From positions 186,001 through 250,000 of the forward strand of contig JAJEJC010000005.1 of the NCBI GenBank assembly GCA_022828105.1: a DNA stretch of 64,000 bases. The letters are read 5' to 3'. A model generated the notes under the pieces. It ran no database searches and was not told the DNA's origin. It was given only the letters and a program-made list of their open reading frames with translations. Below are positions 11,728-46,579 of the stretch, piece after piece. The DNA comes from Dehalococcoidia bacterium (lineage in GTDB: Bacteria > Chloroflexota > Dehalococcoidia > Bin125). Both the position numbers and the translations under genes were made by a program. Numbering within the stretch: the stretch's first letter is position 1; each line of letters opens with the position of its first letter.

Positions 11728-12858
11728 ATGACATCAATCAGCCAGGACAGACTGAACGAACTCTTCGACTACGTCGAAGGCATCGTCGCGGACGAGAAGG
11801 TGCCGGCCGCGCAAATCGCGATCGGCCATGACGGCGAACTCGCCGGGATGCGCACGTTCGGCAAGGCACACAACGGCACCTCGGTCGAACCCGCGTCCGA
11901 CGACACCCTGTTTTGCATGTTCTCCTCGACCAAGGCAATCGTCGGCGTCGGGGTCTGGAAGCTGCTCGACGAAGGGCTGCTCGACCTGGACGAACGCGTC
12001 GTCGACATCATCCCCGGCTGGTGCGCCGAGGGCGGCGGCGAGGTGTCGTATGCCGATGTGACCGTGCGCAACGTGATGCTGCATACGGGCGGGTTCCCGC
12101 ATGCGCCGATGAACCCGCGACTCTGGGAGGATCGCGACGCCCGTCTGCGTCGGATGATGGGTTGGCGGCTCAACTGGGCGCCCGACTCGCAGTTCGAGTA
12201 CCACGCAACCTCGGCCCACTGGGTGCTCGCCGAGATCATCCAGCAGAAGACCGGCGAGGACTTCCGCGACTGGCTGCGGGGCAACCTGCTCGACCCGATG
12301 GGTCTCGACAACCTCTTCGTCGGTCTACCCGACGAGGAACACGACCGCGCGGCGGGCATCGTCTACACCGAGGAACCGCTGCCGGTCGCCGGCGGCGAGG
12401 TCTTCCCGCAAACGATCCTCCACTTCAACCTAGCCTCGCAGCGGCGAGCGGGTTGTCCGGGCGGCGGCGCGTTTGCCAACGCCGCCGACGTGGCGATGTT
12501 CTACCAGGGACTGGTCAACCCGTCGGACGACGGGCCGCTCAGCGCCAATGCGATCGAGCTTGGCACCACGGTCGGCACCGACCCGGACCGGCACGTCGAT
12601 TTGCTCAACGGCATCCACGTCAATCGCGCGCTGACCGTCGTGCTCGCCGGCGACGACGGGCTGACCGGGGAGCGCGGCTTCGGCACGGGAGCATCGCCGA
12701 GAGCCTTCGGACACGCCGGAGCGGGCGGTCAGATCGCCTGGGGCGACCCCGAGACGGGCCTCTCCGTCGGCTTCCTGACCAACGGCTTCCAGCAGGACGA
12801 GCGCATCCGAGAGCGCACGGCAACAATCGGCACAATGGCCGCCGCCTGCGTTGAGTAG
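11728..12858 (+). CDS. Beta-lactamase-fold serine hydrolase
   Basis: Serine hydrolase of the class C beta-lactamase/EstB esterase superfamily, 376 residues. The SxxK nucleophile motif is SSTK at residues 66-69. The family Tyr motif is in FEYHATSAHW and a late HAGAGGQIAW replaces KTG. No signal peptide is seen, which argues for a cytoplasmic esterase or amidase rather than a secreted beta-lactamase. ATG 11728 is chosen since GGGAG lies 8 bases upstream and the extra 17 residues of the longer frame overlap the promoter region of the divergent ABC gene. The true substrate is unknown. Confidence 0.88.
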   Translation: MTSISQDRLNELFDYVEGIVADEKVPAAQIAIGHDGELAGMRTFGKAHNGTSVEPASDDTLFCMFSSTKAIVGVGVWKLLDEGLLDLDERVVDIIPGWCAEGGGEVSYADVTVRNVMLHTGGFPHAPMNPRLWEDRDARLRRMMGWRLNWAPDSQFEYHATSAHWVLAEIIQQKTGEDFRDWLRGNLLDPMGLDNLFVGLPDEEHDRAAGIVYTEEPLPVAGGEVFPQTILHFNLASQRRAGCPGGGAFANAADVAMFYQGLVNPSDDGPLSANAIELGTTVGTDPDRHVDLLNGIHVNRALTVVLAGDDGLTGERGFGTGASPRAFGHAGAGGQIAWGDPETGLSVGFLTNGFQQDERIRERTATIGTMAAACVE

Positions 12859-32871: not shown

Positions 32872-32963
32872 GGAGAGGTGTCCGAGTGGCCGAAGGAGCC
32901 GATCTCGAAAATCGGTAGGTGCGGCGACGTGCCTCGTGGGTTCGAATCCCACCCTCTCCGCCA
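32872..32963 (+). tRNA. tRNA-Ser (anticodon CGA)
   Basis: Class II tRNA with acceptor stem GGAGAGG/CCTCTCC, discriminator G and encoded CCA. The anticodon arm CCGAT-CTCGAAA-ATCGG gives anticodon CGA (codon UCG). A long variable arm and T-arm GTGGG-TTCGAAT-CCCAC follow. No intron. Confidence 0.97.
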
Positions 32964-32986
32964 GTTTGTTCGTCGGCCATTCGTCC

Positions 32987-33076
32987 GGAGAGGTGCTGGA
33001 GTGGACGATCAGGCACGCCTGGAAAGCGTGTAGGGCTGCAAGGCCCTCGTGGGTTCGAATCCCACCCTCTCCGCCA
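32987..33076 (+). tRNA. tRNA-Ser (anticodon GGA)
   Basis: Class II tRNA with the same acceptor stem, T-arm and CCA as its neighbour. The anticodon arm CACGC-CTGGAAA-GCGTG gives GGA (codons UCC/UCU). Twenty-three bases separate the two genes and they share a 33-base identical 3' segment. Confidence 0.97.
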
Positions 33077-44310: not shown

Positions 44311-45405
44311 CTAGCCGCCGACCACGCGCTCAGCGATCTGTTCGCCCAGCTCCTCGGTGCCAAGCGATGCGTCGCCCTCGGAGGCGAGGTCGGCCGGGCG
44401 ATGGCCGGCGGCGAGGGTGTCGATCACGGCCTGTTCGATGGTGGCGGCCTCTGTTTCGAGGCCGAAGGAGTAGCGCAGCATCAGGGCGGCGCTGAGGATC
44501 ATGGCCATCGGATTGGCGATGCCCTGGCCTGCGATGTCGGGGGCGGTGCCGTGGATCGGCTCGTAGAGCCCGAGCGTCGAGCCGTCGGCGGCTGCGCCGA
44601 GCGAGGCGGAGGGCAGCATGCCCATCGAGCCGGCCAGCATCGACGCCTCGTCGGTGAGGATGTCGCCGAACATGTTCTCGGTCACAATCACGTCGAAGTA
44701 GGCAGGATGGCGAATCAGGTCCATGGCGCAGGCGTCGACGAGCCGATGCTCCAGCGTGACGTCGGGATAGTCCTTCGCAATCTCTTCCGTGATCTCGCGC
44801 CACATGCGCGAGGTGTCGAGGATGTTGGCCTTGTCGACCGAAGTGAGCAGCCCGCGCCGGCCGCGCGCGGTCTCGAAACCGAGCCGCACGATGCGCTCGA
44901 CCTCTTCCTCCGAATAGGCGAGCGTGTCGACCGCTTTGCGCTGTCCGGCTTCCTCCCAGCGGCGCTGCGGTTCGCCGAAGTAGATGCCGCCGGTCAACTC
45001 GCGCAGGACAACCATGTCGACCGCCTCCACCGTCTCGCGCTTGAGCGGGGTGGCGTCGGCGAGGATCGGCAGCATCTTGACCGGGCGGATGTTGGCGAAC
45101 AGACCAAGCCCCTTGCGCAGCCCGAGGATCGCCTGCTCCGGTCGCACGGACGCCTTGGGATCATCCCACTTGGGACCGCCGACGGCGCCGAACAGCACCG
45201 CGTCCTGTTGCCGGCACATGTCCAGCGTTTCGTCGCGCAACGCGACGCCGTGTGCGTCGATCGACGCGCCGCCAACGAGGTCTTCCGTGTACTCAAAGGA
45301 ATGATCGAACCGTCCGCCGAGCGCGTCGAGTACGCGAACCGCCTGCCCGATCACCTCGCCGCCGATGCCGTCGCCGGGCAAGAGCGCAATCCTGTAGTGG
45401 GCCAT
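44311..45405 (-). CDS. leuB: 3-isopropylmalate dehydrogenase
   Basis: Oxidative decarboxylation of 3-isopropylmalate to 2-oxoisocaproate, the third leucine step. The 364-residue protein shows IALLPGDGIGGEV, LFGAVGGPKWDD, the LRKGLGLFANIRPVK loop, VVLRELTGGIYFGEP, the TSVDKANILDTSRMWRE helix and ENMFGDILTDEASMLAGSMG. All match the IPMDH rather than isocitrate dehydrogenase branch (the LRKGLGLFANIRP form is leucine-specific). The two CCGxYGxPGC peptide genes and leuD precede it on the same strand, so it is likely the last gene of a leuD-peptides-leuB operon. Confidence 0.97.
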   Translation of the reverse strand: MAHYRIALLPGDGIGGEVIGQAVRVLDALGGRFDHSFEYTEDLVGGASIDAHGVALRDETLDMCRQQDAVLFGAVGGPKWDDPKASVRPEQAILGLRKGLGLFANIRPVKMLPILADATPLKRETVEAVDMVVLRELTGGIYFGEPQRRWEEAGQRKAVDTLAYSEEEVERIVRLGFETARGRRGLLTSVDKANILDTSRMWREITEEIAKDYPDVTLEHRLVDACAMDLIRHPAYFDVIVTENMFGDILTDEASMLAGSMGMLPSASLGAAADGSTLGLYEPIHGTAPDIAGQGIANPMAMILSAALMLRYSFGLETEAATIEQAVIDTLAAGHRPADLASEGDASLGTEELGEQIAERVVGG

Positions 45406-45432
45406 GTAGTGCAGTTCCTAGTCGTCGGTTGG

Positions 45433-45449
45433 GCGCTCCTCCGGAGCGC
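45433..45449 (-). terminator. Stem-loop after the downstream Cys-rich peptide gene
   Basis: Perfect seven-base stem GCGCTCC/GGAGCGC with a three-base loop, 14 bases past the stop of the peptide gene at 45463. There is no T-run. An analogous but not identical stem follows the sister gene at 45653-45669. Confidence 0.5.
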
Positions 45450-45462
45450 GTTCAGGGGAGAC

Positions 45463-45624
45463 TCAACATCCCGGCGCGCCGTAGTCGCCGCAGCACGTCT
45501 GTCGCTCCGTCAGCCTATTCCACCAGATCGCCAGCACGCCCGTGACCAGGCGCAGACCGTGACGGCCGTCCCTGCGCAGGTTGTCGATTGCGTCCGGGAA
45601 CGAGGGTCGTGGGCGTTCACACAT
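45463..45624 (-). CDS. Small Cys-rich peptide ending CCGDYGAPGC (copy 2 of the pair)
   Basis: Fifty-three-residue ORF, ATG 45624 to TGA at 45463. It is basic at the N-terminus, with NLRR and GRH in the middle, a hydrophobic LVTGVLAIWWN, and a terminal TCCGDYGAPGC. Cys are at 2, 44, 45 and 53. The ending matches the sister ORF at 45683-45847 residue for residue except Asn/Asp and Asp/Ala, and the two stops are followed by equivalent hairpins. This makes a random ORF unlikely. Together they sit between leuD and leuB in the same direction. Function unknown: metal binding, a regulatory peptide or a modified peptide are all possible. Confidence 0.65.
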   Translation of the reverse strand: MCERPRPSFPDAIDNLRRDGRHGLRLVTGVLAIWWNRLTERQTCCGDYGAPGC

Positions 45625-45652
45625 CGTGGCGCTACTCGCCTTCCTGGCTCAT

Positions 45653-45669
45653 GCGCTCGGCCCGAGCGC
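45653..45669 (-). terminator. Stem-loop after the upstream Cys-rich peptide gene
   Basis: Perfect seven-base stem GCGCTCG/CGAGCGC with a three-base loop, 14 bases past the TGA of the peptide gene at 45683. Its last base pair differs from the sister stem (G-C against C-G), as for a conserved structure. Confidence 0.5.
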
Positions 45670-45682
45670 GCTCTCCGGAGAC

Positions 45683-45847
45683 TCAACAACCCGGGTCGCC
45701 GTAGTTGCCGCAGCAGTTTTCGATGTTGCGCATCTTGATCAAGGTGTTCTTGATTAGGCCATAGATCGCGTGACGGCGGCCGATGGAGCGGCGCAAGTTG
45801 GTGATGCTCTCGCGCACTGACGGAGTCGGGTGCTGTCCCCTGGGCAT
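45683..45847 (-). CDS. Small Cys-rich peptide ending CCGNYGDPGC (copy 1 of the pair)
   Basis: Fifty-four-residue ORF, ATG 45847 to TGA at 45683, with AGGTGGAG four bases before the start. It reads SVRESITNLRRSIGRRH then AIYGLIKNTLIKMRNIE and ends NCCGNYGDPGC; Cys residues are 45, 46 and 54. The NLRR...GRH segment and terminal CCGxYGxPGC align with the sister ORF, while the middle differs, as expected for real paralogous genes under selection on the tail. It follows leuD by about 112 bases on the same strand. I do not recognise the family. The pair could be RiPP-like precursors, metal-binding or regulatory peptides. Confidence 0.68.
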   Translation of the reverse strand: MPRGQHPTPSVRESITNLRRSIGRRHAIYGLIKNTLIKMRNIENCCGNYGDPGC

Positions 45848-45959: not shown

Positions 45960-46550
45960 CTATACGGTCGCGGGCTTCGTCGAGGGTCGATTGGACTCGT
46001 ACTCGGCGATCAGATCGTCGTGTTCGAGGGTCAGCGAGATGTCGTCGAGGCCGTTGAGCAGGCAGTGCTTGACGAACGGCGCGATCTCGAACGAGCGGGA
46101 CCAGCCGCCCGGCGCGGTGACGGTCTGTTCTTCGAGATTGACCGTGATCGGCGTGTTCGACTCAGCCTCGACCATGCGCATCAGCTCTTCCACATCGGGC
46201 TGCGAGAGGTGGATGGTGAGCAGGCCCATCTTGGCCGAGTTGTTGCGGAAGATGTCGGCGAAGCTCGGCGCGATCACCGCCCGGACGCCCATGCCCTGGA
46301 TCGCCCAGACGGCGTGCTCGCGCGAGGACCCGCAACCGAAGTTGGGTCCGGCCAGCATCACGCTCGCGCCCTGGTACTCAGGCTGATTGGTCACGAAGTC
46401 GGGGTCCTTGGCCCAGGCCTCGAACGCGAACGGACCATAGCCGGTGCGCTCGATCCGCTTGAGGTACTTGGCCGGGATGATCTGGTCGGTATCGACATCG
46501 GCGCGGTCAAGCGGCAGTCCGGTGCCGCTAAAGGTCGTGACGGGTTCCAC
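45960..46550 (-). CDS. leuD: 3-isopropylmalate dehydratase small subunit
   Basis: Swivelling domain subunit of the LeuCD aconitase-type enzyme. The frame reads TFSGTGLPLDRADVDTDQII, KYLKRIERTGYGPFAFE, then the family signature GPNFGCGSSREHAVWAIQ, and ends with the IAPFVKHCLLNGLDDISLTL segment. GTG 46550 is preferred: GGAG is six bases upstream, while the alternative TTG 46562 adds residues of no known role. That gives 196 residues. It is followed on the same strand by the two Cys-rich peptide genes and leuB. LeuC is far away, which is less common than a leuCD pair. Confidence 0.93.
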   Translation of the reverse strand: MEPVTTFSGTGLPLDRADVDTDQIIPAKYLKRIERTGYGPFAFEAWAKDPDFVTNQPEYQGASVMLAGPNFGCGSSREHAVWAIQGMGVRAVIAPSFADIFRNNSAKMGLLTIHLSQPDVEELMRMVEAESNTPITVNLEEQTVTAPGGWSRSFEIAPFVKHCLLNGLDDISLTLEHDDLIAEYESNRPSTKPATV

Positions 46551-46579
46551 AAGTTGCTCCAATCGACTGCAGGGAGTCG

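Follow-up and report, generated by a model that had tools for sequence, protein, structure and literature searches.

Tandem genes between leuD and leuB in a Dehalococcoidia bacterium very probably represent an undescribed family of small bacterial selenoproteins

The window analyzed here is a stretch of 64,000 nucleotides (nt) from a Dehalococcoidia bacterium (GenBank assembly GCA_022828105.1, contig JAJEJC010000005.1, positions 186,001 to 250,000). Four genes follow one another on its minus strand in the order leuD, sel1, sel2, leuB, of which the outer two, leuD (3-isopropylmalate dehydratase small subunit, 45960 to 46562) and leuB (3-isopropylmalate dehydrogenase, 44311 to 45405), were identified by NCBIfam matches. 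Under the standard code, the two small open reading frames (ORFs) between them run from the ATG at 45847 to the TGA at 45683 (54 codons) and from the ATG at 45624 to the TGA at 45463 (53 codons), as the initial annotation had claimed. Beyond each UGA, the frame continues for 16 codons (sel1) and 14 codons (sel2) before a UAG. Most likely, given these sequences, sel1 (45632 to 45847; ATG 45847-45845, putative selenocysteine [Sec] codon UGA 45685-45683, stop UAG 45634-45632) encodes a 71-residue selenoprotein of the form ...CCGNYGDPGC-U-VSGERARAERMSQEGE, and sel2 (45418 to 45624; ATG 45624-45622, putative Sec codon UGA 45465-45463, stop UAG 45420-45418) a 68-residue selenoprotein of the form ...CCGDYGAPGC-U-VSPERAPEERPTDD. 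The predicted full-length sequences are MPRGQHPTPSVRESITNLRRSIGRRHAIYGLIKNTLIKMRNIENCCGNYGDPGCUVSGERARAERMSQEGE for sel1 and MCERPRPSFPDAIDNLRRDGRHGLRLVTGVLAIWWNRLTERQTCCGDYGAPGCUVSPERAPEERPTDD for sel2. The two tails, together with the sequence 3′ of them, constitute a 63-nt direct repeat with 83% identity. A candidate selenocysteine insertion (SECIS)-like hairpin follows each UGA, with its loop starting 20 nt past that codon: GCGCUCG-GGC-CGAGCGC for sel1 (45653 to 45669, minus strand) and GCGCUCC-GGA-GGAGCGC for sel2 (45433 to 45449, minus strand). An Rfam search of the window returned two tRNAs only; two adjacent tRNA-Ser genes, with anticodons CGA and GGA, lie at 32872 to 33076.

The initial annotation had regarded CCGxYGxPGC as a conserved C-terminal tail and the hairpins as matched 3′ structures. 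Conservation of the tail and existence of the hairpins are both borne out; their placement is revised. Because the UGA that closes the ORFs behaves as a Sec codon would, the tail would be internal to the protein and the hairpins would lie within the coding sequence as SECIS-like elements.

We searched one genome per GTDB species for CCGxYGxPGC followed by TRR. The pattern matched 84 stretches, nearly all from Chloroflexota, with further matches in Desulfonatronovibrio, a member of the Thermodesulfovibrionales, and a few others; none of 301 genomes matched the reversed pattern. From 83 public stretches we recovered 97 further copies, giving 99 strict copies including the two in the window, sometimes in tandem with two or three together. 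A family profile built from 38 members recognized sel1 (E = 3.0e-21) and sel2 (E = 6.8e-21) and was positive in 40 of 301 sampled genomes of Chloroflexota (E below 1e-6), 17 of 296 of Nitrospirota, and 39 of 375 of Desulfobacterota (Thermodesulfobacteriota in NCBI naming). The total came to about 180 complete members across these three phyla, with independent copies nearer 170 to 180 because some genomes were reached by two routes. The earlier view that both small genes are real is therefore supported by homologues in other genomes that share a tail far beyond chance. Weak profile matches (E = 5e-4 to 0.01) were inspected and judged to be chance; pattern matches on viral contigs (L203 and L204) and in a Chromatiales genome (L058, with TGG at the codon in question) were unrelated or chance, and tblastn against plasmids and phages found no family member.

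The core C C G x x G x P G C is invariant or nearly so; its first variable position is usually N or H and the second usually Y or P. Upstream, 78% of clusters have N at 21 residues before the UGA or Cys codon, and 92% have K or R at 17 residues before it. The median net charge is +6. Ratios of nonsynonymous to synonymous polymorphism (pN/pS) of 0.00 to 0.10 across the ten tail codons indicate strong purifying selection there; the initial annotation had proposed selection and had said that a lack of constraint on these codons would refute it. Across the codons after the UGA, pN/pS was 0.07 to 0.40, a range to be read with the hairpin in mind, since it also limits silent change there. The G+C content by codon position in the extension was 0.75, 0.57, and 0.67; behind the true stop it was even, at 0.6. 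Openness of the frame after the UGA was dropped as evidence for Sec, being no better than in other frames. Several lineages carry His-rich extensions past the Sec position (e.g., EDHDHHHSHDHGHGHDHH in L081 and DDHHHGHGHNHTH in L155), which would be hard to explain if this region were untranslated. In three members (L037, L046, and L076) the post-Sec tail is only RR and a His-rich run stands at the N terminus instead. A few others (such as L031 and L048) stop directly after the Sec codon or one residue later, so the post-Sec tail itself appears to be dispensable.

The codon that follows the motif was TGA in all 99 strict copies and TAA or TAG in none. The true stops farther on in the same frames were of all three kinds (63 TAG, 18 TGA, and 16 TAA). 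When strict copies and profile hits were considered together (n = 158), 155 carried TGA and three carried TGC, with no other codon represented, and each of 29 copies fetched later carried TGA. Only three Cys forms (L137, L140, and L142) are available for the classic Sec/Cys pair test, a small basis for it. L142 resides in a genome (G082) where SelB fell below the cut-off, SelA was unmatched, and tRNA-Sec did not rise above background; the SECIS-like hairpin is absent from its usual place. L140 likewise lacks the hairpin, and its host genome has SelA and tRNA-Sec. In L137 (G162:C12:4643-4822), the TGC form occurs in a Sec-using genome and a SECIS-like hairpin with a CGUGA loop is kept. This is perhaps a recent Sec-to-Cys change, with the hairpin a relict.

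The bacterial SECIS (bSECIS) model calls for a small loop with G in the first two loop positions, 16 to 37 nt after the UGA (PMC13188914). Counting sequence groups clustered at 70% identity, we required five or more base pairs in the stem, a loop that begins 16 to 24 nt past the UGA, and a G as the first or second loop nucleotide. Such hairpins were detected in 70 of 78 groups, compared with 11.5 (at most 20) in shuffled sequences, and after 53 of 231 ordinary TGA-ended ORFs from the same loci (23%). Stems differ wholly in sequence between groups. When 20 hairpins with 3-nt loops were aligned on the loop, six pairs held in all of them, with changes on both sides at every pair; the covariation score was 1.08 (0.30 for shuffles and at most 0.19 with one arm slid), although these hairpins were picked as good ones and the unselected 70/78 count therefore carries more weight. 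Among 35 groups analyzed earlier, the loop center lay 20.5 to 24.5 nt past the UGA in 28 (shuffles, 4.1; at most 10), and in those 28 a group's own arms paired at 5.6 of 6 positions, compared with 2.9 when arms were swapped. The sel1 hairpin alone was not more stable than shuffles, and the energy z-score of this single hairpin was set aside as uninformative. In six loci (L189, L191, L192, L193, L196, and L231), the SECIS-like loop (GGUGAGG) contains another UGA, which is probably the true stop.

The genome that contains the window encodes the full Sec machinery: SelB (324 bits, above the cut-off), SelA (526 bits), SelD (354 bits), and a tRNA-Sec with a UCA anticodon. In its selD gene (L133, G000:C4:303510-304451), the part encoding the N-terminal loop contains an in-frame TGA (TDLARCGG-U-GSKFGPE), and by its sequence this SelD is likely itself a selenoprotein. 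Among 50 carrier genomes, 44 gave a clear tRNA-Sec match (>63 bits) and six had no strong match; one genome (G162) gave two strong matches on a single contig (G162:C68:7946-8039 and 12427-12520). Of the Chloroflexota genomes that carry the UGA form, 36 of 37 passed the SelB cut-off. In the exception, G095, tRNA-Sec is present, SelB is below the cut-off, and SelA is matched only weakly, possibly reflecting a gap in its 220-contig assembly. SelB was detected in 38 of 40 family carriers and in 196 of 261 other genomes (Fisher p = 0.002, with genomes below the cut-off listed by eye), an association that is weak on its own because SelB is common in Chloroflexota. The family shows features expected of bacterial selenoproteins: a conserved in-frame UGA, a bSECIS-like hairpin, Sec machinery in most hosts, and a few Cys homologues.

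The initial annotation had also raised regulation of the leucine operon as a role for these genes. In this lineage, sel1 and sel2 are probably cotranscribed with leuD and leuB. Across clusters read by hand, however, leu genes flank only about 23 of 80 Chloroflexota loci, and the others adjoin hisA, pyruvate kinase, moeA, meaB, a menaquinone gene, photolyase, lipocalin, DUF523-DUF1722, and numerous other genes; neighbors so varied mean that leucine regulation is not the general role of the family. A search for partner genes across loci revealed no constant neighbor, and, in agreement with the earlier report of no maturation enzyme nearby, none recurs among the neighbors of relatives. Copies from Nitrospirota and Desulfobacterota (L170, L180, and others; L192; L169) have photolyase, lipocalin, CrtC-like, or DUF523-DUF1722 genes nearby, a combination that recalls, by analogy, light or oxidative stress clusters; the photolyase, lipocalin, and DUF523-DUF1722 neighbors recur within lineages only. 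As short ORFs with hairpins in a leu operon, sel1 and sel2 recall the leader peptides of leu attenuators. They differ in lying between leuD and leuB, in having no run of Leu codons, in the conservation of their protein sequence, and in belonging to a family not tied to leu genes.

No described family matched these proteins. Neither the truncated nor the read-through forms found a family in Pfam or NCBIfam (June 2026), with seven read-through members searched at E values up to 10, and an NCBIfam scan of 38 members gave only unrelated matches to single members, two of them probably from His-rich runs. The PDB returned no match by sequence or by fold, the motif strings retrieved nothing relevant from the openly accessible papers searched, and Table 1 of a catalogue of 119 prokaryotic selenoprotein families contains no such motif (PMC13188914, 2026). 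The earlier statement that the family is undescribed thus holds for Pfam, NCBIfam, the PDB, this catalogue, and those papers. As far as searched, the protein family is new and the decoding mechanism is already known. Among the closest known systems is KCU-star/DUF466 (YbdD; NF033934/PF04328), a small bacterial protein in which Cys and Sec are paired (CU) close to the C terminus (PMC13188914). The proteins described here share that size and placement but match it in neither Pfam nor NCBIfam even at E = 10, and their motif is CCGx(Y/H/P)GxPGC-U. SaoC (NF040734), MbdU (NF045648), and the Csac_0668-type 2Fe-2S protein (cd10141) also have adjacent Cys and Sec residues, with likely metal or redox chemistry (PMC13188914). 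Cys-Sec adjacency is common to all of these; however, no member matches in NCBIfam, and size, motif, and context differ.

Taken together, these results suggest that sel1 and sel2 are, very probably, paralogues in tandem that belong to a so far undescribed family of bacterial selenoproteins. On this sequence-based reading, the UGA after CCGxYGxPGC would be decoded as Sec by SelB and tRNA-Sec through the SECIS hairpin 16 to 24 nt downstream, and translation would run on past it to the UAG. A competing account takes the UGA as an ordinary stop, so that the products are peptides of 53 and 54 residues ending in CCGxYGxPGC, and assigns the hairpins to mRNA stability or termination. It follows the standard code and accommodates hairpins behind the UGA; nevertheless, we regard it as highly unlikely, since UAA and UAG never replace UGA in about 180 copies from three phyla whereas Cys codons do, no T-run follows the sel1 and sel2 hairpins, and the position, loop rule, and covariation of the hairpins, along with the full Sec machinery, speak against it. 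Even less credible is the proposal that the product is a ribosomally made, enzyme-modified peptide (RiPP) or that the UGA encodes another residue under a changed code. The product is small and Cys-rich, and an in-frame UGA alone would be compatible with other decoding, yet three members have Cys in place of the UGA, the machinery and SECIS-like hairpins are those of Sec, and neighbors vary by lineage with no recurring maturation enzyme. The posttranslational modification suggested in the initial annotation gives way here to putative cotranslational Sec insertion. A further account keeps Sec and adds a switching role for the UGA codons that depends on selenium: without Sec insertion, translation would stop early and that of sel2 and leuB would fall. 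The sel2 ATG lies 7 nt from the true sel1 stop and 58 nt from its UGA in the window and in two relatives (L018 and L093). The leuB ATG lies 12 nt past the sel2 stop. Within window positions 45405-45420, ahead of that ATG, the sel2 UAG overlaps a putative leuB ribosome site, TAGGAAC, an overlap kept in most leu-linked relatives. This spacing makes a local selenium-dependent effect on leuB possible; the switch as such appears improbable, because most tandem relatives have a sel1-sel2 gap of 37 to 162 nt and most family members lie outside leu operons.

What the selenoprotein would do is less certain than that it is one. The predicted product is small and basic (net charge about +6), has two predicted helices, and carries the invariant CCGx(Y/H/P)GxPGC-U near its C terminus. 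AlphaFold2 gave three helices at modest confidence (pLDDT 72, pTM 0.50), a model too weak for us to claim a fold. We infer that the adjacent Cys-Sec pair may form a reversible selenenylsulfide, resolved by the upstream Cys-Cys pair, that the protein may serve, through thiol-selenol chemistry, as a small redox carrier or as a reductant, and that basic amphipathic helices may dock it on a partner or membrane surface. Mammalian thioredoxin reductase has a C-terminal GCUG tail in which a vicinal Cys-Sec pair cooperates with a second thiol pair; the comparison is by analogy only, with no flavoenzyme domain here and no apparent homology. We prefer, at roughly an even chance, a redox carrier whose Cys-Sec bond is reversible over a selenoprotein that binds soft metal or metalloid ions, or stores or delivers selenium or metal, rather than carrying electrons. 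The latter is a tentative alternative, to which three Cys and one Sec within 11 residues, the His-rich post-Sec tails or N termini noted above, and an N-terminal Met-Cys in 21 of 73 clusters all lend weight; against it, the His-rich run and extra Cys are absent from most members, and genes for metal transport or metal resistance do not recur next to the family.

The family is a likely addition to the 119-family catalogue, and gene models in many genomes would need correcting, since selenoproteins are routinely missed when UGA is called as a stop. As a small protein, it is suited to direct tests of the chemistry of the Cys-Cys/Cys-Sec motif. The most far-reaching possibility, which we consider doubtful, is an almost Sec-only small-protein family in at least three phyla with a thiol-selenol or soft-metal function absent from known selenoproteomes, in which selenium supply would also set the translation of sel2 and leuB in this lineage. 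If true, selenium status would be linked to leucine synthesis in these bacteria.
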